From Enterobacterales bacterium CwR94 (GTDB lineage Bacteria; Pseudomonadota; Gammaproteobacteria; Enterobacterales; Enterobacteriaceae): a stretch of 64,000 bases of DNA. Numbering within the stretch: the stretch's first letter is position 1; every line of letters begins with the position of its first letter. Position numbers and translations under genes: made by a program. Shown piece by piece: positions 16,260-62,941 of this stretch. The notes under the pieces are model-generated. The model was given only the letters and a program-made list of their open reading frames with translations, was not told the origin of the DNA and did no database searches. Location: assembly GCA_002837195.1 (NCBI GenBank), contig KZ478059.1, positions 496,001-560,000 of the forward strand. The letters run 5' to 3'.

Positions 16260-17114
16260 TTACCAGTTAGCAATAATTGAAGCACCAATTTCAGCGATAA
16301 TGCGATTTTGCTCATCAATATCCGTCTTGCTGTTGGTGATATAAATGACAACAATGCGCGACGGTTGGTTGTCTGGACCCAGCATGGCGATGATGCCACG
16401 TGACCCATGTCTACCTGCCCCCGTTTTATCGGCGATAAACCATCCTGAAGGCAGCACGGAACGAATGAGTGCGCCAGCCACTTCATCCCCAATCATCCAC
16501 TGCGTTAACAAATCGCGAGACTCTGCCGTAAGCGTATCGCCCTTTAATAACTTACGCAGGGTATTGGCCATGGCCAGCGGGCTGGTGGTATCGCGCTCAT
16601 CGCCGGGTACTGCATCATTCAAATCAGGCTCATAACGATCAAGTCGTGTAACCGGATCATTTATTCCCCTTAAAAAATGCGTTAGCGCCTGAGGGCCCTG
16701 AATGATATTCAAGAGTAAATTAGCCGCAGTATTGTCACTCACTGAGACGGTGGCTCGGCATAACTCCTCTATCGTCATACCGCTTTCAATATTTTTTTCT
16801 GTAACCGGAGAATACGTGATCAAGTCACTCTGTTGATAATTTATGCGGCGAGATAAGTGCTCTTTCCCCTGATCGACGCGTTCCAGTACGGCGCCACAGA
16901 CCAAGGTTTTAAATGTACTCATCATAGGAAAACGCTCATCAGTGCGATATCCATCAATGAGTTTTCCACTCGCCAGGTCTATTTCCGCATATCCTATTCG
17001 GCCCGAGATTTTATTTTCAAGCGTTTTAACTTTGTCAACCGTGTTATGCGATGAACAACCCGCCAATGAAAATAAAAGCACTAAAGAAAAACACCAGGGA
17101 CGCAAAAAAGGCAT
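16260..17114 (-). CDS. class A beta-lactamase, predicted lipoprotein
   Basis: This 284-residue serine beta-lactamase hydrolyses penicillins and perhaps some cephalosporins. All class A elements are present in Ambler numbering: S70-TFK in MMSTFK, SDN130-132, E166-x-x-x-N170 in EPDLN, and KTG234-236. It also has the Cys77-Cys123 pair (TLVCGAV, ELCRAT) typical of the TEM/SHV cluster. The signal ends in a lipobox SLAGC (Cys20), so the enzyme should be anchored in a membrane rather than free in the periplasm, which is unusual for this cluster. GGAG lies before the ATG. There is no AmpR-type gene beside it. A second class A enzyme is at 45437. Confidence 0.9.
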
Positions 17115-45436: not shown

Positions 45437-46291
45437 TTACCAGTTTTTTATGAGTGCATCGCCAATCTCGGCAATCTTCTGGTTCCGCTCATCCATGTTT
45501 GCCGAACTGCCGGTCAGATAAATCACCACAATACGAGAAGGTTTACCGTCTGGGCCCAGTGCCGCGATGATGCCACGCGAACCGCGCTCTCCTGCTCCGG
45601 TTTTATCCGCGATAAACCAGCCCTTCGGCAAGACTGAACGCAAAAGCGGCCCAGCGACTTTGTCCTCTTCCATCCAGCGCAGCAGTTGCTGTTTCGAAGC
45701 CTCACTCAGGCTGTTGCCAGTCAGCAGTTGGCGCAAGGTTTGCGCCATCGCCGCAGGTGTTGTGGTATCACGTGGATCGCCGGGCAAAGCGTCGTTCAAC
45801 TCTGGCTCCCAGCGATCCAGACGGGTAATTCCATCACCCGTGCTGCGCAGAAATGTGGTCAGCGCCTGCGGGCCACCCAACGCCGTTAACAGCAAATTAG
45901 CCGCCGTATTGTCACTCAGGGTGATCGTCGCGTCGCACAATTCGGCCACCGTCATCCCCCGGTCGAGGTGTTTCTCCGTCACCGGGGAGTATGTGATGAG
46001 GTCTTGCTGACGATAATGGATACGGCGTCCAAGCTGCTCTTTTCCGGCATCAACACGGGCTAAAACAGCGCCGCACAGCAAAACTTTAAACGTACTCATC
46101 ATCGGGAAACGCTCATGCGCGCGATAGCTTTGCAGCAGTTGACCGCTGCTGAGATCGATTTCAGCGTAGCCCACGCGCGGATTCAACTGATGTTCCACCT
46201 GTTTGACTTTATCCACCGTGGTTTGAGCGGCAACGGTGGGCAGGCAAAACGAGGCTAACAAAGGGACGAGTGACAGACGAAAATAGTGCAT
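45437..46291 (-). CDS. class A beta-lactamase, TEM-like
   Basis: This 284-residue periplasmic serine beta-lactamase has an ordinary signal peptide ([18 protein letters not shown]). Motifs in Ambler numbering are S70 in MMSTFK, SDN130-132, E166-x-x-x-N170 in EPELN, KTG234-236, and Cys77-Cys123 ([14 protein letters not shown]). Long stretches match my memory of TEM-1 ([66 protein letters not shown]), with KTG instead of KSG, so it is a close chromosomal relative of TEM/SHV. No transposon is visible around it. It should hydrolyse penicillins and narrow cephalosporins. Its partner at 16260 is lipidated and more divergent. Confidence 0.92.
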
Positions 46292-48032: not shown

Positions 48033-48860
48033 TTACTCATGGGCGGGAGAAAAACGCTGACGCTTATCGCGCCATAATGTCCATAGAAAAGCCGCAATAA
48101 ACACCAGGGTGAACAGCAACACCACGGTTGGCGCTGGCGCACTGTCTATCCAGAACGAAAGCATCACGCCGCTAAAAGAGACCCCGACTGACAGCACTAC
48201 CGCAAGCAGCAGCGTCATGGCGAAACGTCGCGTCAGTAATACCGCAATCGCTCCCGGTGCAATCAGCAATGAAATGGCCAGAATAATACCCACCGATTTC
48301 AGCGTGGCCACGATGGTTAGCGCAATTAAACACAGCAAACCGTAATGCAGCAAACCGGTACGTAAACCCGAAGCCCGCGCCTGAATGGGGTCAAACGCAT
48401 GCAGTAGGAAATCCCGCCATTTCAACCCGATAACCAGTACGGCAATCAGCGCAATCACGCCAGATTCGATGATATCCGCCCACCCAACGCCCAGCATGTC
48501 GCCGAACAAAATATGGTCGAGATGGACTTCGGGTTTCACGGCCAGATACAAGATTAGCCCGGCGGCAAACATGCCGGAGAAGACAATGCCCATCAGCGTA
48601 TCTTGCTTGATACGGCTGTGAGTTTTGAGATACCCGGTCGCCACCGCACAGAAGAGTCCGGCGGCAAACGCGCCGATCCCCAGCGGTAAGCTCAGCATCC
48701 AGGCCAGGACGATCCCCGGAAACACCGCATGGCTCATGGCATCCCCCATCAGCGCCCAGCCCTTGAGTACCAAAAAGCAGGACAACAGCGCGCACGGCAC
48801 GGCCACTATCACGGAAATCGTCAACGCATTGATCATAAAATCAAACGCAAAGGGATTCAT
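48033..48860 (-). CDS. sitD: Mn/Fe ABC transporter permease SitD
   Basis: This 275-residue inner-membrane permease of the ABC-3 (metal) family has about eight hydrophobic spans. The conserved core includes LKGWALMGDAMSHAVFPGIVLAWM and a cytosolic coupling-helix region near HAFDPIQARASGL. It pairs with SitC to form the channel. The gene overlaps the SitC stop by 4 bases and is last in the sitABCD-type operon (SitA-B-C-D order on the minus strand). Ends EASFAPAHE-like hydrophilic. A short spacer and hairpin follow. Confidence 0.88.
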   Translation of the reverse strand: MNPFAFDFMINALTISVIVAVPCALLSCFLVLKGWALMGDAMSHAVFPGIVLAWMLSLPLGIGAFAAGLFCAVATGYLKTHSRIKQDTLMGIVFSGMFAAGLILYLAVKPEVHLDHILFGDMLGVGWADIIESGVIALIAVLVIGLKWRDFLLHAFDPIQARASGLRTGLLHYGLLCLIALTIVATLKSVGIILAISLLIAPGAIAVLLTRRFAMTLLLAVVLSVGVSFSGVMLSFWIDSAPAPTVVLLFTLVFIAAFLWTLWRDKRQRFSPAHE

Positions 48861-49708
48861 TCACTGGCCTCCCGACGTAAGCGACGCTGGGCCAGTAAGC
48901 CCTGTTTGGGGGCGAACACAAAGGCCAGTAAAAACAGGGCGGTTTGGGCCACCACGATAATGCCGCCCGTGGCACCGTCTAAATAGTAACTTAGCCAGGC
49001 CCCAAGAAAGCTGGTGATACTGCCGATGGCCACCGCAATCATCAGCAGACGCGGAAAACGATCGGTCAGTAACCAGGCCGTTGCGCCCGGCGTGACTACC
49101 AGACAAATCACTAAAAAGGCGCCTACCGTTTGCAATGCCGCTACGGTCGACAGCGCCAGCAACGTAAAAAACAGCAATTTTAAACGCGCCGGATTCAGCC
49201 CAATGGCGCGTGCATGGCTTTCATCAAAAAAGACCACTAACAGATCTTTCCACTTCATCAACAACACCAGCAGCGACAGCGTACCAATCAGCACCAGTTG
49301 CAGGATATCGGCGGGAGCAATAGCCAACACATTGCCGAGAATAATGGTTTGCACGTTTACCGAGGTGGGATTAAGCGACACCATAAACAGGCCCAGGCCA
49401 AAGAAGGAGGAGAAAATCAGCCCAATGATGACATCCTCTTTCAGCCGCGTGCGCTGATTTAAAAACAGCATGCTGCCTGCCGCCAACGCCCCGGAAAAAA
49501 ATGCACCAAGGGAAAACGGCAATCCCAGCATTAACGCCCCGGCAACGCCCGGCACAATGGAATGCGACAGGGCATCCCCCATTAATGACCAGCCCTTGAG
49601 CATCAAATAACAGGATAAAAATGCGCACAGTGCGCCGACTAACGCAGACACCCACATGGCGTTGACCATGTATTGATAGGCAAAGGGTTCCAGCAAGGCG
49701 GCCATCAT
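48857..49708 (-). CDS. sitC: Mn/Fe ABC transporter permease SitC
   Basis: This 283-residue ABC-3 permease resembles SitD: LKGWSLMGDALSHSIVPGVAGALML in the second span region and a coupling loop FFDESHARAIGLN. The two permeases form a heterodimer that carries Mn2+ and Fe2+ delivered by SitA. Its ATG overlaps the SitB stop (ATGA at 49705-49708), so translation is coupled. It is the third gene of the operon. Confidence 0.88.
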   Translation of the reverse strand: MMAALLEPFAYQYMVNAMWVSALVGALCAFLSCYLMLKGWSLMGDALSHSIVPGVAGALMLGLPFSLGAFFSGALAAGSMLFLNQRTRLKEDVIIGLIFSSFFGLGLFMVSLNPTSVNVQTIILGNVLAIAPADILQLVLIGTLSLLVLLMKWKDLLVVFFDESHARAIGLNPARLKLLFFTLLALSTVAALQTVGAFLVICLVVTPGATAWLLTDRFPRLLMIAVAIGSITSFLGAWLSYYLDGATGGIIVVAQTALFLLAFVFAPKQGLLAQRRLRREASE

Positions 49709-50499
49709 GTCGGGTTTTCTCCTGCCGCCAGTGGCGCAGGCGCGACACCTTGCATCTGCGCAAACGGCAGGTGTGCCACACCGCTAAATGCCTGTTCGAG
49801 ATGTGCTGCGGTAAAGGTGGTCGCGGTAGGGCCACTGGCCAGCACGGTGCCTTTTACGAACACCGTGTGATCGCAATACTCCGTAACGGTGGTGAGATTA
49901 TGGGTAGAGACCAGCATGGTGCAGCCCTCATCACGCAGCTCCCGCAGCAGAGCAATAATGCGCTCCTCGGTTTTGACATCCACGCCGGTAAACGGCTCAT
50001 CCAGGAGAATCAACCGCCCTTGCTGGGCTATCGCCCGCGCCAGGAATACCCGCTTCTTCTGGCCGCCAGACAGCTCACCAATCTGACGATGGCGAAAGTC
50101 CTGCATGCCAACGCGCGTGAGCGCATCATCCACCGCACGCTTATCGGCCTGCCGGGCAATACGTAACATTCCCATGTGACCGTAGCGCCCCATCATCACC
50201 ACATCTTCAACCAGCACCGGAAACGACCAATCCACCTCTTCTGCTTGCGGCACATAGGCAATAAGGTTTTGACGCAGTGCTTTGGCTGGCGGCATACCCA
50301 GCAATTCGAGTGTGCCCTGACTGGCTGGCACAAAGCCCATAATGGCTTTAAACAGGGTCGATTTCCCGGCCCCGTTGACGCCCAGCAGCGCCGCGATGGT
50401 GGCTTGCGGTAGCCGTAAGGAAGTATCACGCAGCGCCGTGTGACCATTTCGATAGGTCACCCGCAGGTTCTCTATACGCAGTGCGGCTCCGTCACTCAT
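49705..50499 (-). CDS. sitB: Mn/Fe ABC transporter ATPase SitB
   Basis: This 264-residue ATPase has Walker A GVNGAGKST (40-48), a signature motif ELSGGQKKRVFLARA, Walker B LILLDEPF, and the switch histidine in STHNLTT. It powers the SitC/SitD channel. It overlaps the SitA stop by 8 bases, so the operon is compact. The DE residues after Walker B and the downstream D-loop are intact. Confidence 0.9.
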   Translation of the reverse strand: MSDGAALRIENLRVTYRNGHTALRDTSLRLPQATIAALLGVNGAGKSTLFKAIMGFVPASQGTLELLGMPPAKALRQNLIAYVPQAEEVDWSFPVLVEDVVMMGRYGHMGMLRIARQADKRAVDDALTRVGMQDFRHRQIGELSGGQKKRVFLARAIAQQGRLILLDEPFTGVDVKTEERIIALLRELRDEGCTMLVSTHNLTTVTEYCDHTVFVKGTVLASGPTATTFTAAHLEQAFSGVAHLPFAQMQGVAPAPLAAGENPT

Positions 50500-51403
50500 G
50501 TTGCGCCCCTTGCTGGAGGCCCTTCACCAGCGTTTCAGAGGTGACGCGCAGCAGATCAAGATAGGTGGGAACCGGGCCGTCTGCGGTACTCAGCGAGTCC
50601 ACATACAAAACGCCGCCATAATGTGCGCCGGTTTCCCGGGCCACCTGTTTCGCTGGCTTGTCAGAAACCGTGCTTTCACTGAATACGGCACCAATTTTTT
50701 TATGGCGTACCGTATCAATGACCTTTCTGACCTGCTGCGGCGTGCCCTGCTGGTCAGCATTGATCGGCCACAGATACAGTTCTTTTAAACCATAATCGCG
50801 TGCCAGATAGGAGAAAGCCCCTTCGCTGCTGACTAACCAACGTTGGTTTTCCGGCAGCCTGGCAATCGCCGCTTTCCACGGCGCGACAGTCGCGGCAATC
50901 TCACGTTTGTAGGCGGCGGCATTACGTTGGTAGGTATCGGCATTGGCCGGATCGTACTTCATCAATGCATCGCGAATATTGTCGACGTAGAGAGCGGCGT
51001 TTTCAGCAGACATCCAGGCGTGGGGATTGGGTTTCCCGTTGTACGGCCCCTCACTGATCCCCAGCGGATGCACGCCGGTGGACACCACCACTTCCGGGAC
51101 GTCTTTTAAATGTTGATAAAAGCGCGCAAACCAACGCTCAAGGTTCATCCCATTGGCCAGGATCAATTGAGCACGCTGCGCCCGGCGAATATCGCCCGGT
51201 GTAGGTTGATACTCATGAATTTCAGCACCGGCTTTGGTAATGGAATTCACCTCAGCGGCATCACCTGCCACATTTTTTGCCATATCGGCAATCACCGTAA
51301 AGGTCGTGACCACCTGAAATTTCTCGGCGGCGTGTGCACTCGCACTGGTTCCCAATGCGATAAGTAATGCTGCTGCCACCCTTTTCCACTTTGCCAAGGC
51401 CAT
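50492..51403 (-). CDS. sitA: periplasmic Mn/Fe-binding protein SitA
   Basis: This 303-residue cluster A-I metal-binding protein has a signal peptide cut near ASAHA (residue 25). Likely metal ligands are His63 (EIHEYQP), His128 (PNPHAW), Glu194 (VSSEGAF) and Asp269 (YVDSLS), in the same spacing as in SitA/YfeA. It delivers Mn2+ or Fe2+ to the SitBCD pump, needed under oxidative stress or host metal restriction. GGGGGAAAG precedes the ATG. A MntR-like operator lies 57-72 bases upstream, so manganese repression is expected. Confidence 0.92.
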   Translation of the reverse strand: MALAKWKRVAAALLIALGTSASAHAAEKFQVVTTFTVIADMAKNVAGDAAEVNSITKAGAEIHEYQPTPGDIRRAQRAQLILANGMNLERWFARFYQHLKDVPEVVVSTGVHPLGISEGPYNGKPNPHAWMSAENAALYVDNIRDALMKYDPANADTYQRNAAAYKREIAATVAPWKAAIARLPENQRWLVSSEGAFSYLARDYGLKELYLWPINADQQGTPQQVRKVIDTVRHKKIGAVFSESTVSDKPAKQVARETGAHYGGVLYVDSLSTADGPVPTYLDLLRVTSETLVKGLQQGAQHE

Positions 51404-57229: not shown

Positions 57230-57252
57230 GCCGCTTGTTTTCCGCCCTTCTC

Positions 57253-57276
57253 GCCCTTGCGGATCTCGGCAAGGGC
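57253..57276 (+). terminator. hairpin after the alcohol dehydrogenase gene
   Basis: GCCCTTGC-N8-GCAAGGGC begins 23 bases after the stop codon. It has no T-run and could be a weak terminator or part of the downstream leader transcript. Confidence 0.4.
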
Positions 57277-57410
57277 GCTATACCAACGTATACCCCGCTT
57301 ATGCGCCAGGTGACTTTTTACATCCCAATCACTGTTAGCGCCTGACTGGCCTGAATGCGAAAATACTGCGCGTTGAGGCAAGAGGACACTCTCACGCCAA
57401 CACCGCCTCG

Positions 57411-57447
57411 GTTGCCGGATAGACAGCGCTATCCGGCAACTTTTTTT
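57411..57447 (+). terminator. strong intrinsic terminator before the MgtL-like leader peptide
   Basis: GTTGCCGGATAG-ACAGCG-CTATCCGGCAAC is a perfect 12-base stem with a 6-base loop, followed at once by seven T residues. It lies 182 bases after the alcohol dehydrogenase gene and only 24 bases before the leader-peptide ATG. It either ends the dehydrogenase transcript or acts as an attenuator in the leader of the CorA-like operon. A shorter stem with GAGGC/GCCTC just upstream (57374-57410) could compete with it. Confidence 0.75.
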
Positions 57448-57471
57448 AATTTTTTGATGAGGAGAATCACG

Positions 57472-57564
57472 ATGGATCCCGACCCTGAACGGTGCGGTGA
57501 CGCCTACGTAACCCCTTTACATTTTAAAAACACCTTTTATCGGGCTTTTATCCCGAGGCTTTAA
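57472..57564 (+). CDS. MgtL-like regulatory leader peptide, 30 codons
   Basis: ATG at 57472, with GAGGAGA about 6 bases before it, opens a 30-residue peptide beginning MDPDPE and ending FIPRL. E. coli and Salmonella MgtL begin with a similar acidic/proline block (M-E-P-D-P-T-P, from memory). There the block destabilises ribosomes at low Mg2+ and so controls the magnesium transporter downstream. A longer in-frame reading from 57355 crosses the terminator stem and is rejected. The stop lies 51 bases before a gene set encoding three CorA-like proteins, the classic output of a Mg2+-sensing leader. Mechanism here is inferred by similarity. Confidence 0.68.
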   Translation: MDPDPERCGDAYVTPLHFKNTFYRAFIPRL

Positions 57565-57615
57565 CGCATTCTATGCATGAGAGGCCTTGGCGACGATCAG
57601 CCGCAGGAGATTCCC

Positions 57616-57948
57616 ATGCCGTTATACACGACGCCCTCCCACAACGGTTGCGCGATCATCCAAACACACGTTTGGACACGCAGCGCACGCAGACCCTCAC
57701 TCCAACCTACTCAACCTCCTCGTCGCTGGTCACGCTACGAGCGTTTGTCATTTTCCATGCTCGGCTATAGCTGGGGCATTCTGGTGGTCGCCGTCAGTGC
57801 TTTGCACTTTGGTAACTACGATTTGGAAACCAAAACCTCTTCCACATCAGGCTCACATGCCGGTTTTTATGAAAGCGTACGTGCACTGAAAACGGAGTCA
57901 TCGGCTCCGGTCCCACCCGCTAAAGATGCGCAAGGAGAGGCCAAATGA
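57616..57948 (+). CDS. small single-span membrane protein of the CorA-like operon (A)
   Basis: ATG at 57616, with AGGAG about 8 bases before it, gives 110 residues. An in-frame start at 57577 has no ribosome binding site. A basic, proline-rich N-terminus (RSARRPSLQPTQPPRRWSRYERL) precedes one TM helix (FSMLGYSWGILVVAVSALHF), then a hydrophilic tail of about 45 residues. Positive residues on the N-side suggest the N-terminus faces the cytoplasm. The stop overlaps the next ATG (ATGA at 57945-57948). I do not recognise the family. Its repeated pairing with CorA-like genes (see 58948) suggests an accessory subunit. Confidence 0.65.
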   Translation: MPLYTTPSHNGCAIIQTHVWTRSARRPSLQPTQPPRRWSRYERLSFSMLGYSWGILVVAVSALHFGNYDLETKTSSTSGSHAGFYESVRALKTESSAPVPPAKDAQGEAK

Positions 57949-58883
57949 CCCTCGACAATCGTTTGTTCGACGCAGACTGCACTGAGGCAGCACTGCATAA
58001 CTGGATTCGCGTCACACCGGACATGCCAGAGAAACTCGCCGACATTAAGCAGACTTTAGGCATCGATATTCATCGCACCCTGCATCAACATTTGCGTCAG
58101 GAAGGGGAATTCTGCTATTTCCCTGTCACCTTTCTGAACGTCTCTCAACAGGGCAAAAAGGCCAGCCGCGTGGTATTCGTGCTGGGACGCGATACGCTGA
58201 TTTCTCTGGAGCCGGCCCCTGCACCCGCGCCTTTAACCGCTGCCTTACAGCGCTTACAACGCGACACACGCACCACCGATGCATTTGAGAGTTTCGCCCT
58301 TATTTTGCAGGCAATTAACGATGCCACTGATGCATTACTGGATGCCCTCAACGACGATTTGGGTAACGTCCTGGTGCAGACCAATTCAGTGCTCAACAGC
58401 CTCGAAGCACGAGATCGCGATTTTGGTGTCAGTGACGTGGTCGCAGCCCAACTCGACCTTGGCGAAGTGGAAGAATTGCTGTCGGATTGCATCGAAAGCC
58501 AGTTGCAACTGGTGTTGGCCGCGCGCCACGTCCTCGCTCGTCTGCCTGCCGATCGCCTGCACTTGAAATCGCTGTATCACACACTGATTGAAGATATTGA
58601 AGCCGTTGAAGACCACGTCAGTTTTGTACATGACCGCGTTCGTTTGCTGCAAACCACCAATAACATGGCGCTGAATGTGAAACAGAACCAAATCGTGAAG
58701 GTCTTTTCGGTGATCACTGCGGTGTTCTTACCCGCCATGCTGATTTCCACCTACTACAGCATGAATGTGGCCAATATGCCGATTTTAGAGTGGCAATACG
58801 GTGAGCCCATGATCATTGCCCTCACCGCAGCGCTGGCGCTGTTACCCCTGCTGTATGTGAAACATCGCGGCTGGTTACGCTAA
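57945..58883 (+). CDS. CorA-like membrane protein 1 (SMN motif)
   Basis: This 312-residue MIT-superfamily protein has an N-terminal soluble alpha/beta domain (TEAALHNWIRVTPDMPEKL...FCYFPVTFLN) and a long helix leading to the membrane (NNMALNVKQNQIVKVFSVITAVFLPAMLISTYYSMNVANMP). A second TM helix and a basic C-terminus follow (LLPLLYVKHRGWLR). In CorA the end of TM1 carries GMN; here it reads SMN, in the right place before the M-P loop. Topology and length match a CorA channel subunit, pentameric in the family. It follows a small membrane protein with an ATGA overlap and precedes another after 64 bases. Confidence 0.82.
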   Translation: MTLDNRLFDADCTEAALHNWIRVTPDMPEKLADIKQTLGIDIHRTLHQHLRQEGEFCYFPVTFLNVSQQGKKASRVVFVLGRDTLISLEPAPAPAPLTAALQRLQRDTRTTDAFESFALILQAINDATDALLDALNDDLGNVLVQTNSVLNSLEARDRDFGVSDVVAAQLDLGEVEELLSDCIESQLQLVLAARHVLARLPADRLHLKSLYHTLIEDIEAVEDHVSFVHDRVRLLQTTNNMALNVKQNQIVKVFSVITAVFLPAMLISTYYSMNVANMPILEWQYGEPMIIALTAALALLPLLYVKHRGWLR

Positions 58884-58947: not shown

Positions 58948-59280
58948 ATGTCGCAGACGCTTAACGACAAGACCACGCACGCCTCCGGTTCAGCCCAGCA
59001 GTGGCAAGGATTGGTTTGGAATACTGACTTAACCCTGCATGATGAGGACAATCACGCAGCAATCCAGCGTAAACAAGCCATTGATCAGGCGCGTGCCAGT
59101 CGCCCTCGCACGGCGCAAATTGAGCGCGAAATCATGATCGCCGTTATCGTGCTCTACATCCTGATTCTGGGAAGTTTCGCCGCCCTGCATATTTACGGTG
59201 AGTATGCCCTACCGGCCCCGGAAACGCCGGCTCAGCACCAGGCCCATCTCCCAGCGACTGAAAGCGAGACGCAGCCATGA
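58948..59280 (+). CDS. small single-span membrane protein of the CorA-like operon (B)
   Basis: This 110-residue protein has a hydrophilic N-terminus of about 65 residues (QQWQGLVWNTDLTLHDEDNHAAIQRKQ), one TM helix (IMIAVIVLYILILGSFAALHIY) and a short Pro/Ala/Glu-rich tail (LPAPETPAQHQAHLPATESETQP). AAGGAA lies before the ATG. Its stop overlaps the next CorA-like gene (ATGA at 59277-59280). Length, membrane layout and position mirror the small protein at 57616, although the sequences differ. It is likely a second accessory subunit. No known family is recognised. Confidence 0.65.
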   Translation: MSQTLNDKTTHASGSAQQWQGLVWNTDLTLHDEDNHAAIQRKQAIDQARASRPRTAQIEREIMIAVIVLYILILGSFAALHIYGEYALPAPETPAQHQAHLPATESETQP

Positions 59281-60218
59281 CGCCAAAGCACTTCCGCTTA
59301 CCCCAGACGGATGCGCATTTACGCCAGGGAGGCTGGCTGCGCCTGTCGATTACCCAGCAGGAGCACCTGATTGCCCATCAACATGAGCATCAGATCGACT
59401 TAACATCGGCACGCGGCCGCGCGGCCACAGAAGAGAATGGCTTTGTGATCATTCCCGTTGAGTTGGTGGTGCTGCAGGATAATCGCTATCAGGAAACCAC
59501 GGTGGTGTTCGCCCTGAGTTCTACCGTGTTGATCAGCCTTGAACACAATGTGCACCTCCATGCCTTTGACCATGTCAGCCAGCAGTGGATGGAAAAACTG
59601 CTACAGGGGGAACCCTCAAGCCCGGCTGCGATCCTGTTTACGCTGTTAGAAACACTGAATGACACGGCGCATGCCACGCTACGCGAAATATCAGCCCGTC
59701 TGGACGGGCTGAGTGAAACTGTCGCCGTTGCCAGCGGCGGCTATGCCATGTCAAAGCGTCAGGCGGGCGTTGCCGATATAGCAGGCACCGCCATTGCGCT
59801 TGGTGAAGCCGAGGAGCTGGTCGCAAAAACGGTGGAAGGACAACTGATGCTGGCGCGCGCCGGACGCTGGTTGCGTCGCGTCAGTGAGGATGCCGATTTC
59901 GTCAAACAACTGCCCGTATTGCTGTCGGATATCCAGAGCCTGCGGCGCTATGCCCGCTTTCAACACGATAAAATCCGCAATTTGCAACAGTCACTGATGA
60001 CCACCATGGACATCAAGCAAAATCAGGTGGTGAAAGTGTTTACCGTGGTGACCGCCGTGTTCACGCCCCCCACGCTGGTTGCCGCGTTCTACGGTCAAAA
60101 CTTTGCTTACATGCCGGAACTTGAATTGCCGTGGGGAGAGTGGATGGTGATGGGGTTAACTGGCCTGTTTGCCCTTATGCCACTGGCTTACATTAAACGT
60201 AAAGGATGGATGCGATGA
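59277..60218 (+). CDS. CorA-like membrane protein 2 (GQN motif)
   Basis: This 313-residue CorA-type protein shows the soluble N-domain (FVIIPVELVVLQDNRYQETTVVFALSS) and a long stalk helix. TM1 contains IKQNQVVKVFTVVTAVFTPPTLVAAFYGQNFAYMPEL, with GQN in place of GMN, and a basic end KRKGWMR follows TM2. GQN replaces the methionine of the selectivity motif while the asparagine is kept. It is paralogous to the proteins at 57945 and 60215. The start is translationally coupled to the small protein before it, and its stop is coupled to the next gene (ATGA at 60215-60218). Confidence 0.82.
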   Translation: MTPKHFRLPQTDAHLRQGGWLRLSITQQEHLIAHQHEHQIDLTSARGRAATEENGFVIIPVELVVLQDNRYQETTVVFALSSTVLISLEHNVHLHAFDHVSQQWMEKLLQGEPSSPAAILFTLLETLNDTAHATLREISARLDGLSETVAVASGGYAMSKRQAGVADIAGTAIALGEAEELVAKTVEGQLMLARAGRWLRRVSEDADFVKQLPVLLSDIQSLRRYARFQHDKIRNLQQSLMTTMDIKQNQVVKVFTVVTAVFTPPTLVAAFYGQNFAYMPELELPWGEWMVMGLTGLFALMPLAYIKRKGWMR

Positions 60219-61114
60219 ACCAACGCAATCCGTTGCAGGCGTGGAATCGCCTGTACGCCATTGATCATCAGGCGCTGGACGATCTCACCCGGCTTCACCA
60301 TGTCGACCTGCGGCCTCCGGCTGTCGCGCAGCCCGGCACTGCGATGCGCATTCGCTGCGTGCGGTTGGAAGCGGAACAGATATGGGCGACGGAAGTGCTC
60401 TGGCGTCAGGGCGCAGATGAACAACCGCTGTACACCGTGGAATGTGGTCAGCGCGTATTACAGCCCGGGCAAGCACAAGAACGCATCGACGCGCAGGGAT
60501 TGTCGGCAAGCAGCTCGCAGACCATCTCGTTAATGTTGATGCACCAGTTGCTGGGACAAGCGGTGCGTGTGCTGGAGCGCATCGATCAGGGATTAACTGT
60601 TTCGATGCAGGCGTTGCGCGTATTCCAGTTAAACGTCGGCACCAATCGGGCACGCGGCGCGGAAGACCTGGTCGATGTCGATAGCCACCTTTCAACGCTC
60701 AACGTACCGCTCTCTTTCGTGCTGCAGTCGCTGGACGATCTTGAACAGGCAGCGCTGCGTTTACGGCGGGTCGCACTGCAAGGCTCCGCCCTGGCGGCCA
60801 CACACATTGATGAGTTGATTGCAGAAATTGAAGGCGCACAACGACGCGCGCGTTTCACCCTGGAGCGTCAACGTTTTCACCGCCGGGCAACCGGGGAAAC
60901 GGTGGCAATGAGCGATCTTAATGTCACCAAGGTGTTTAGCGTGTTGTGGGCGGCTTTTATTCCGGGTACTGCATTAATCAACTGGTACGGGCAGAATTTC
61001 CGCGTGATGCCTGAACTGTCGTGGGATGGCTCCCTGTGGACGCAGTTATTATCGGTACTGATTTTAACCGCGGTACCGGTATTCATGGTGAAGCAATCAG
61101 GGGCACTCCGTTAG
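60215..61114 (+). CDS. CorA-like membrane protein 3 (GQN motif)
   Basis: This 299-residue CorA-type protein is the most divergent of the three. It has a soluble N-domain without the aromatic core of the others, a long helical stalk (IEGAQRRARFTLERQRFHRR), then TM1 MSDLNVTKVFSVLWAAFIPGTALINWYGQNFRVMPELSWDG and a second TM ending FMVKQSGALR. GQN stands at the GMN position. The ATG at 60215 overlaps the preceding stop (ATGA); an in-frame ATG at 60206 is less well placed. It ends the operon before a strong terminator. Possibly a modulatory subunit of a mixed channel. Confidence 0.8.
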   Translation: MNQRNPLQAWNRLYAIDHQALDDLTRLHHVDLRPPAVAQPGTAMRIRCVRLEAEQIWATEVLWRQGADEQPLYTVECGQRVLQPGQAQERIDAQGLSASSSQTISLMLMHQLLGQAVRVLERIDQGLTVSMQALRVFQLNVGTNRARGAEDLVDVDSHLSTLNVPLSFVLQSLDDLEQAALRLRRVALQGSALAATHIDELIAEIEGAQRRARFTLERQRFHRRATGETVAMSDLNVTKVFSVLWAAFIPGTALINWYGQNFRVMPELSWDGSLWTQLLSVLILTAVPVFMVKQSGALR

Positions 61115-61268: not shown

Positions 61269-62342
61269 ATGAAACTGGAGCCTTTACCTGTTCCTTCGCA
61301 AACGCATCGCAGAATACGCCTGCTGCTGATGGCCATCGTGATGGTGGCCATCTATATCCTTGATAGCATCACCAATTATGAAATCGCCGTATCGATGTTC
61401 TACACCGTGGTGATCTTGACCGCGGCCCGGGTTGTCGATCAGCGTGCCCTGTGGATGCTGACGGGGGCCTGTATTGGCATTACCGTCTTGAGTTTTGTCT
61501 CCACGCCGCAGGGGAACTACCGCGCGGGCGTGCTGAATATGATGATCAGTATTTTGTCGATTGTTATTACGGGTTATCTGGTGAGCCGAATGGAGGCCGC
61601 CAGAGCCGCCGCCCACTACGCACGGGAACGCCTGCTGCGCATCTCGCGAGAACGTAGCCTTGAGGGCCTGACCACCCTGATTGCTCACGAGATCAATCAG
61701 CCGCTGGCCGCAATAGTGACCAGTGGCAATGCGTGTCAGCGCTGGCTACGACACCCCTCCGCCAATCTGGAAAAAGCCGAACAGGCGCTTACCCGCATAT
61801 TGAACGATGCGCACCGCGCCAGTGACATTATTGCGCGCGTGCGGGCACTGACCAAAGGAGAGCCGCCCCAGAAGACGGCATTTGCCTTTAATCAGGCGAT
61901 AAAAGAGGTGGTGACGCAGTCAAAATCCGACATGACACGTAACGGCATCACCCTCACTCTGACGTTGATGCCCTCTCTCCCCGCCGCTCTCGGCGATCGG
62001 GTACAAATTCAGCAAGTGATGGCGAATCTGATCATTAATGCGATCGATGCGACAGTGCTACAAACCAGCGCGCCACGCACGATCTCCATTCGCTCCTGCC
62101 AGCAGGACGCAATGCTGGTATTTACCATTGTCGACAGCGGCATTGGCTTATCGGCAGAAGCTCACGCCCATCTGTTTGAGGCCTTCTGGACAACCAAAGA
62201 GCAAGGACTGGGTGTGGGGTTAAGCCTGTGTAGAACCATTATTGATGCTAATGGTGGACATATTTGGGCAGAGCCTCAGCCGCACGGCGGCGCATGCTTT
62301 GCCTTTCGCCTTCCCACCTTTGCAGAGGAATCCCCTGAATGA
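61269..62342 (+). CDS. membrane histidine kinase, FixL/HPK4-like
   Basis: This 357-residue sensor has four hydrophobic spans in residues 15-105 (LLLMAIVMVAIYIL, ISMFYTVVILTAARVV and two more) and almost no periplasmic domain, so it probably senses within the membrane or at its face. The H-box AHEINQPLAAIV has His140, and the ATPase domain has NLIINAIDA, DSGIGLS and GVGLSLC. The HEINQPL type of H-box belongs to the FixL/DctB-like HPK4 group. The stop overlaps the regulator start (ATGA at 62339-62342). The input signal is unknown. Confidence 0.85.
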   Translation: MKLEPLPVPSQTHRRIRLLLMAIVMVAIYILDSITNYEIAVSMFYTVVILTAARVVDQRALWMLTGACIGITVLSFVSTPQGNYRAGVLNMMISILSIVITGYLVSRMEAARAAAHYARERLLRISRERSLEGLTTLIAHEINQPLAAIVTSGNACQRWLRHPSANLEKAEQALTRILNDAHRASDIIARVRALTKGEPPQKTAFAFNQAIKEVVTQSKSDMTRNGITLTLTLMPSLPAALGDRVQIQQVMANLIINAIDATVLQTSAPRTISIRSCQQDAMLVFTIVDSGIGLSAEAHAHLFEAFWTTKEQGLGVGLSLCRTIIDANGGHIWAEPQPHGGACFAFRLPTFAEESPE

Positions 62343-62941
62343 ATGATGCTCGCGTTTATGTCATTGACGACGACAGTTCGGTACGTGCCGCACTGGCAGA
62401 CCTGTTGGCTTCCGTTGGGCTAGATGTCCAGGTGTTTAGCTCAACCCGGGAGTTTCTGGATACGCCACGAGAAAATTTGCCCGCCTGCCTGGTATTGGAC
62501 GTGCGGATGCCGGAACAGAGCGGTGTCGATTTCCATCGCCACATGAACAGTCTCGGCTTACATTTTCCGGTGATTTTTATTACCGGACACGGGGATATTG
62601 CAATGGGTGTCAATGCCATTAAAAACGGTGCCATTGAATTTCTGACTAAGCCCTTTAATGACCAGCAACTGCTCGATGCGATTCACCAGGGGATCGAACA
62701 GGATCGCTGTCGTTTGCAACGCGAATGTATCACTGCTGACCTGCTCCGCCGTTGGCAGTCGTTGAGTGACGGTGAACGTGATGTCACGCGCCTGGTCGTG
62801 CAGGGGTTGCTGAACAAACAGATTGCCTGGCAACTTAACCTCAGTGAAATCACGGTGAAAGTGCGCCGCGCCCATGCTATGCGCAAAATGCAGGCCGGCT
62901 CGCTGGCAGAGTTGGTACGTCTGGTCGCCGATGTCGTTTAG
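62339..62941 (+). CDS. FixJ-family response regulator
   Basis: This 200-residue regulator has a receiver with Asp11-Asp12, phospho-acceptor Asp54 (LVLDVRMPEQSG) and Lys104 (FLTKPFND), and a LuxR-type HTH (SLSDGERDVTRLVVQGLLNKQIAWQLNLSEITVKVRRAHAMRKM). It is encoded right after its likely kinase with a 4-base overlap. Targets are unknown; the CorA-like operon immediately upstream is a candidate but is separated by a terminator. A hairpin follows the gene. Confidence 0.88.
   Translation: MNDARVYVIDDDSSVRAALADLLASVGLDVQVFSSTREFLDTPRENLPACLVLDVRMPEQSGVDFHRHMNSLGLHFPVIFITGHGDIAMGVNAIKNGAIEFLTKPFNDQQLLDAIHQGIEQDRCRLQRECITADLLRRWQSLSDGERDVTRLVVQGLLNKQIAWQLNLSEITVKVRRAHAMRKMQAGSLAELVRLVADVV

Follow-up and report, generated by a model that had tools for sequence, protein, structure and literature searches.

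A putative magnesium-sensing leader peptide with an MgtL-like start ahead of an operon of CorA-family genes

MgtL is the model of a nascent peptide that reports the Mg2+ of the cell through the fall-off of ribosomes. In the account given by PMC11282234 its E-P-D-P start leads to ribosome drop-off at low Mg2+, which is countered by EttA, and the same paper reports that the peptide affects transcription termination within the leader of mgtA. The peptide of Salmonella and E. coli has 17 codons as described in PMC8934632; beyond the start it carries prolines at 7 and 9, and its tail is basic. According to PMC11552253, Rho was not observed at the mgtA of E. coli, and translation of corL is described there as repressing corA, by Rho termination with alternative leader structures. 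The mgtP leader of Salmonella, as presented in PMC3641672, senses proline. A stem-loop in this leader hides the start of mgtC, and early stop codons in mgtP lower the expression of the downstream gene with the hidden start (PMC3641672). More product at high Mg2+ is suggested for YoaL-mgpA and for the CorC N terminus in PMC12421838.

The leader frame and its operon

The window analysed here is a whole stretch of 64,000 nucleotides from Enterobacterales bacterium CwR94, and its features are collected in the table. A sequence-only reading of this DNA had picked out a 30-codon frame with a strong ribosome binding site and an MDPDPE start, and proposed that it controls CorA-like genes in the same way as MgtL. 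The frame is present at 57472-57564 with a good ribosome binding site, and beyond the start the peptide is indeed unlike MgtL, with an unrelated tail and a length of 30 codons. It had been placed 51 bases before a membrane-protein operon. That distance was checked, from the TAA ending at 57564 to the ATG at 57616, and is correct; the gene starting there encodes a small protein of 110 residues, and the first CorA-family gene is the one at 57945. Rfam gave nothing at the gathering score in the window, and nothing with E up to 1 in 57230-57700. Within open-licence papers we found no description of the leader or the operon.

Features of the leader region and operon (positions are those of the window)
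Feature	Position	Strand	Remarks
Inverted repeat TATACCAACGTATA, probable response-regulator operator	57279-57292	+	degenerate form upstream of 15/15 leaders (post hoc count)
CCCAAT element	57324-57329	+	44 bases after ATACC start
Probable extended -10, TGCGAAAAT	57356-57364	+	transcript start ~57371, inferred
Terminator-like hairpin and T run	57410-57447	+	hairpin 57410-57441, 13 pairs (one G-T); T run 57441-57447
Leader ribosome binding site, TGAGGAG	57458-57464	+	7 bases to ATG; GGAG in 13/15 loci
Leader ORF, MDPDPERCGDAYVTPLHFKNTFYRAFIPRL	57472-57564	+	30 codons; ATG at 57472, TAA ending at 57564
Hairpin that pairs the following start codon and, in part, that gene's ribosome binding site	57575-57619	+	
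Small protein 1	57616-57948	+	110 aa; one hydrophobic stretch by eye; no Pfam match; hallmark of the operon
CorA-family protein 1	57945-58883	+	PF01544; signature YSMN
Small protein 2	58948-59280	+	110 aa; no Pfam match
CorA-family protein 2	59277-60218	+	signature YGQN
CorA-family protein 3	60206-61114	+	signature YGQN
Sensor histidine kinase	61269-62342	+	
FixJ-like response regulator	62339-62941	+	LuxR-type DNA-binding domain
Presumptive leader of the window genome's own mgtA (L079), MDEPPCTQRLRVAAIAC			17 codons; AAGGAG; 109 bases before mgtA ORF start

The two small proteins of the operon are, in our reading of their hydrophobic stretches, putative membrane proteins. CorA-family proteins 1, 2 and 3 score 157.8, 136.3 and 44.4 bits against PF01544, all passing the curated cut-off of 27, and 106.7, 129.2 and 33.8 bits against the CorA Mg2+/Co2+ equivalog TIGR00383, where none reaches the cut-off of 200.75. 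The canonical CorA signature is GMN. It is missing from all three proteins, which carry SMN, GQN and GQN respectively in 15/15 loci, and because of this replacement the ion that they carry is not certain. The response regulator scores 204.5 bits against the FixJ model, under the cut-off of 255. ORFs for the two-component pair are found in the window, in L033 (by Pfam) and in L037, and a kinase-like ORF in L034 and L036; none was seen within the 10.9 kb of the Acinetobacter locus (L041). Behind the CorA-family genes there is a porin gene in L034, L035, L036 and L041, from which the operon looks like an uptake system. In Bordetella trematum (L035, 8273-10036) the N-terminal stretch of the porin ORF resembles part of the Mg2+ P-type ATPase MgtA (PRK15122, E 2.1e-13), and the porin ORFs of L060 and L061 from the same family (576 and 588 codons) have by eye a similar ATPase-like N terminus.

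Further genes in the operon loci touch on magnesium. A gene of 95-133 residues lies between the leader and small protein 1 in 11 of the 15 loci with a leader, including L034 (4141-4503) and L041 (4227-4511); it is absent in the window and L037, and in L033 and L035 no more than short ORFs remain of it. Six members were aligned, and that of L041 was modelled with a pLDDT of 83. When this model was submitted to VIA-align the top six rows were cytosolic structures of the Mg2+ transporter MgtE, with Z of 7.7-9.4, values that are within reach of helical folds by common arrangement. Foldseek gave no match to the model below E 0.001, the best (0.19) being MgtE, and the comparison with Pfam MgtE_N fell below the cut-off. 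The predicted fold thus bears a weak resemblance, nearest to the MgtE N domain. An MgtC-family gene (PF02308, E 9.4e-35) stands behind the Acinetobacter copy of the operon, at 9479-10204 of L041. Elsewhere in the window there are ZnuA-type binding protein and ABC-3 permease genes at 48033-51403 on the minus strand, probably an ordinary metal uptake operon, and on the same strand two beta-lactamase-family genes matching PF13354, at 16260-17114 (E 6e-37) and 45437-46291 (E 4e-42).

The operon was followed through other genomes using its CorA-family proteins and small protein 1. When 392 genomes of the same family were searched with CorA2 at E 1e-40, a single one matched, the genome of the window itself. 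A CorA1 scan of GTDB contigs gave nine loci, from Pseudomonas reidholzensis, P. fluorescens PS910, four Comamonas, Bordetella trematum, an Acinetobacter sp. and a metagenome-assembled genome labelled Chloroflexi; CorA1 had no match in the plasmid collection at E 1e-30. A model of small protein 1, built from alignment A1, was used for searches at the level of genus, family and class. It matched 1/274 genomes of the window's class, 6/53 of the genus of a Comamonas and 1/255 of that Comamonas' family, 1/175 of the genus of the Acinetobacter, 1/398 of the genus of P. reidholzensis and 5/268 of the family of B. trematum, all of these being samples in several of which 11-18 candidates were scored per genome, so that misses are possible. 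We take as operon loci the window, the nine loci of the CorA1 scan, two from the Comamonas genus and four from the B. trematum family, 16 in all; L049 and L050, weak second matches of the small-protein model at E 8e-4 and one with a stop, were left out. Because the operon is rare and scattered, the window copy was probably acquired by horizontal transfer, leader included.

Conservation and specificity of the acidic-proline start

The sequence-only reading had named a comparison of homologous loci among its checks, and lack of conservation of the peptide frame in relatives as a refutation. This we have run, and a short upstream ORF starting M-x-P-[D/E]-P is kept in 15 of the 16 operon loci, spanning the window, Pseudomonas, Comamonas, Bordetella with its family, and Acinetobacter. 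The other locus, L040, has a permuted operon, and no leader was found on scanning the whole of it on both strands. The 15 leader loci represent about six lineages. Pro3, Asp/Glu4 and Pro5 are each present in 15/15 leaders, and position 2 is Asp in 11 and Gly in four. The eleven open with ATG-Asp, and the four (L060-L063, from the B. trematum family) with TTG-Gly, reading MGPDPESE. GGAG lies ahead of the leader start in 13 loci, and the length ranges over 22-37 codons. Codon 4 may be GAC, GAT, GAA or GAG, and codon 5 CCT, CCC or CCG, and therefore it is the residue and not the codon that is kept. Over all 15 leaders pS is 0.56 and pN 0.16 in codons 2-7, against 0.58 and 0.48 after codon 7. The six leaders of the Comamonas genus give pS 0.17 and pN 0.05 for codons 2-7, and 0.27 and 0.21 for the later ones. 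In L060-L063 codons 2-7 are invariant and the values after codon 7 are pS 0.18 and pN 0.06, so in those four leaders the tail is constrained too. The tail of the leader mostly drifts and the start x-P-[D/E]-P is kept. Acidic residues alternating with proline in the first codons, and kept as amino acids, are one mark of an intrinsic-ribosome-destabilisation (IRD) leader, and the 15 leaders carry it.

How far the start signature is specific was examined at several scales. The pattern GGAG-N3..12-ATG-GAN-CCN-GAN-CCN has one match in the whole 4.48 Mb genome, and this is the leader. A narrower form, GGAG-N3..10-ATG-GAY-CCN-GAN-CCN, was run on the 15 whole genomes having operon and leader, and gave 11 matches in nine of them. 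Nine of these matches are the leader. The remaining two, in separate genomes of the Comamonas genus, begin ORFs of 145 and 176 codons. Six genomes are without a match because their leader has a TTG start or a weaker ribosome binding site. Within the fetched loci, about 0.99 million strand-bases, all 11 distinct short M-x-P-[D/E]-P ORFs with a ribosome binding site are the leader, a scan for which the list of accepted sites was widened post hoc, after L033 and L041. When the GGAG-N3..12 pattern was applied to 79 genomes of the window's family and order, 65 had no match, and of 14 matches one was the leader. The other 13 all have an mgtA-like gene just downstream, with 46-49% identity to the MgtA of the window genome over 372-444 residues. 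Their ORFs encode 11-30 residues, for example MDPDPTPLPKRRKTPFR, and are MgtL; nine begin MDPDP, and the tails vary as the lengths do. The reversed pattern, as a control, had no match in the 15 operon genomes and three in the 79. As far as sampled, the signature appears to mark leaders of Mg2+ transport in the window's family and order. The MDPDPE frame is far from chance.

We also looked at mgtA in the operon genomes themselves. It is present over the cut-off in 12 of the 15, and in two of these it is preceded by a short acidic-proline ORF whose ribosome binding site is convincing, the window genome (MDEPPCTQRLRVAAIAC) and Bordetella trematum (MPNSDEPEPRLRWVSLARPLS). In MDEPPCTQRLRVAAIAC the acidic and proline residues are ordered differently from the M-x-P-[D/E]-P start. 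Several of the Comamonas mgtA starts are those of the longest ORF, and consequently the absence of an mgtA leader there tells little.

The promoter region and the hairpin over the next start codon

A repeat close to ATACC-N3-GTATA lies upstream of all 15 leaders, a post hoc count without a chance control, the degenerate form having been set with the sequences already in view. In 13 of the 15, the exceptions being L037 and L041, CC[CT]AA begins exactly 44 bases after the start of ATACC and GARAAT lies exactly 79 bases after it. A scan for the sigma-70 consensus found no promoter. We read these three elements as a putative response-regulator operator with an activator-dependent promoter, because a fixed spacing across genera is hard to obtain otherwise, and the FixJ-like regulator of the operon is perhaps the protein that binds there. 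If transcription starts close to 57371, the hairpin at 57410-57441 is inside the transcript and ahead of the leader, and transcripts must pass it. This hairpin had been described in the earlier reading as a perfect terminator. It is terminator-like and has its T run, with a G-T among the 13 pairs; the shuffled region yields 0.8 terminator-like sites on average. It might be an attenuator, or the leftover terminator of the upstream dehydrogenase gene. Its being a conserved attenuator is not supported, since by eye no comparable hairpin with T run was seen near the other leaders.

The second hairpin lies behind the leader and holds the start codon of the next gene. The stop of the leader is 43 or 44 bases from the next start in 13/15 loci, 51 in the window and 72 in L041, which with its longer spacer was excluded from the hairpin alignment A3. 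In the 14 aligned loci 92.3% of the cells are paired, against at most 60.5% in slid versions. By eye L041 could form a hairpin of its own (CATGT/ACATG, AATCT/AGATT and CTTG/CAAG), and its minimum-energy fold is without that hairpin. When the stretch is folded by itself, 12 of the 14 loci have an essentially fully paired start codon, and the other two have unpaired fractions of 0.45 (L035) and 0.40 (L037). The next gene's ribosome binding site is partly paired, with 0-44% unpaired. In the longer context of the leader the start codon is open more often than in the isolated stretch. Single folds of nine loci gave z from -0.91 (L037) and -1.40 (window) to -4.40 (L060). Among 200 shuffles, those as good numbered 20 for the window, 40 for L037, 14 for L035, 10 for L041 and three for L062, and none for L033, L034, L039 and L060. 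Covariation is weak, its five measures being reached by 36, 18, 67, 131 and 31 of 500 shuffles, and one slid alignment has more double changes (six cells, against four observed). Weak covariation is expected when one arm of a hairpin carries start signals. The next start is held in a conserved hairpin beside the stop of the leader, which is one mark of a coupled leader; this hairpin is weak in the window alone and stronger in several relatives.

No more than about 10 bases separate the leader stop from the 5' arm in the aligned loci. The footprint of a terminating ribosome is given in PMC3641672 as 12-15 bases from the P site, so the arm begins inside it. A ribosome modelled at the stop makes the next start cheaper to open than it is in free RNA, by more than 0.5 kcal/mol, in 7/15 loci and costlier by more than 0.5 in 6/15, with little change in 2/15; the sign is not consistent among loci. 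The opening cost goes from 6.6 to 10.4 in L041 and from 8.2 to 11.4 in L058. Pairing of the distal leader in competition with the hairpin is not a general feature: in 13/15 loci it does not stand out from that of shuffled leaders, and it does so in L058 (1/100 as good) and L059 (6/100). The anatomy of the hairpin suggests translational coupling, in which initiation at the next gene is aided by a ribosome that has finished the leader.

A proposed mechanism and its alternatives

We think it probable, from position, motif and anatomy, that this is a cis-acting leader peptide with an MgtL-type sensor start and a coupled output on the next gene. The sensor half is well supported by position and motif, and is the stronger of the two. 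As with MgtL, low Mg2+ or a low capacity of the cell to stabilise ribosomes would let the M-D-P-D-P start destabilise the ribosome translating it. The ribosome would either abort at codons 2-6, or get to the stop and sit on the 5' arm of the hairpin. Positioned there it would help to free the start of the next gene, and abortion would leave that start closed. The promoter is probably switched through the inverted repeat by the operon's own response regulator, in which case the leader would add a check of intracellular Mg2+ to another signal. That a completed leader turns the operon on, a sign opposite to that of MgtL, is the least certain step, and we lean towards it by only a little. Of the sequence-only proposal, an acidic-proline leader ahead of CorA-family genes stands by position and motif; control in the same way as MgtL is doubtful, since the hairpin behind the leader stop, lying over the start codon that follows, suggests control of translation and possibly the opposite sign. 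Putting everything together, M-x-P-[D/E]-P might be a movable Mg2+ sensor of bacterial ribosomes, combined outside mgtA and beyond the enterics with a next-start hairpin into an opposite-sign switch for a three-subunit CorA-type system with its two-component pair, a composite that we put forward tentatively and at less than even chance.

The same sensor might work with the sign of MgtL, so that the operon is switched on when ribosomes fall off at low Mg2+ and shut off when the leader is completed, refolding of the RNA either blocking Rho termination or freeing the hidden start. We regard this as rather unlikely, though it has the logic of mgtL/mgtA and corL/corA as set out in PMC11282234 and PMC11552253 on its side, and would suit an operon that seems from its porin genes in four loci to serve uptake. 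In L041 and L058 it is the free RNA that opens the next start and the ribosome at the stop that closes it, and in L058 and L059 the distal leader outcompetes nearly all shuffles. Such competition is not general, however, 13 of the 15 loci behaving like shuffled leaders, and with the 5' arm so near the stop a finishing ribosome would open the hairpin and not close it.

An amino-acid attenuator, in which the proline codons 3 and 5 sense the supply of proline as proposed for mgtP and earlier for the mgtA leader ORF, draws on the invariance of both residues in 15/15 leaders and on the precedent of Salmonella mgtP, with the mgtC start hidden in a stem-loop (as presented in PMC3641672). It is improbable nevertheless: the acidic residue 4 is equally invariant, only the two earliest prolines are common to all the leaders, a ribosome stalled at them would miss the hairpin, and no proline genes are found among the scanned operon proteins. 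The start might instead be kept for the function of a small protein acting in trans, for example on the CorA-like proteins. MgtS is a short regulator of Mg2+ transport. MgtR, which is named in PMC3641672, is a further example, and the constrained tail of L060-L063 (pN 0.06, pS 0.18) is in keeping with such a role. Over the 15 leaders, however, residues after codon 7 are hardly conserved, the length runs from 22 to 37 with no hydrophobic stretch kept by eye, and the stop stands at a near-fixed distance from the next start; we consider a role in trans very improbable. Finally, short ORFs abound in the window, where 54-62 kb is overlapped by 117 that have 25 residues or more, and a random frame or annotation artefact could begin MDPDPE. 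The chance of this is negligible, and it is refuted by conservation, given the leader in 15/16 operon loci, the single match in the genome and the 13/13 other matches at mgtA.

Should this five-residue start also function in Comamonas, Pseudomonas, Bordetella and Acinetobacter, ahead of other transport genes and with a different RNA device after it, then the preferred reading, a cis-acting leader with a sensor start, would imply a modular sensor that has spread or arisen repeatedly. The signature could also serve as a cheap genome-wide marker of Mg2+-linked genes, all 13 of the other matches in the 79 genomes being at mgtA.

Comparison with described leaders

Each of the known leaders shares part of this arrangement. 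Like CorL, it is a leader ORF ahead of a CorA-family gene, and in the description of PMC11552253 the translation of CorL controls corA and is linked to Mg2+. Unlike it, CorL is reported there to work by Rho termination and to repress when translated; the likeness is one of description. With MgtP, the leader of mgtCBR, it has in common a short ORF containing proline followed by a stem-loop over the next ribosome binding site and start codon, whereas the prolines of MgtP as given in PMC3641672 are consecutive, at codons 10-12 of 17, and the acidic-proline codons of the present leader are at its start. YoaL and CorC, compared here by their description in PMC12421838, differ in that YoaL overlaps mgpA and CorC is itself the destabilised protein.

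With MgtL the leader shares the M-[D/E]-P-[D/E]-P start, a strong ribosome binding site and a transport gene downstream. It is not MgtL itself, differing in operon, length, tail and apparently output device. It stands outside mgtA and is followed by a small protein and the CorA-family operon; it has 22-37 codons and an unrelated tail in contrast to the published 17 codons, although the 13 MgtL found here also range over 11-30; and its stop is 43-44 bases from the next start (51 in the window, 72 in L041), with a hairpin on that start. The leader and MgtL would thus form a natural pair with possibly opposite outputs, which would test how an RNA reads the drop-off of ribosomes.
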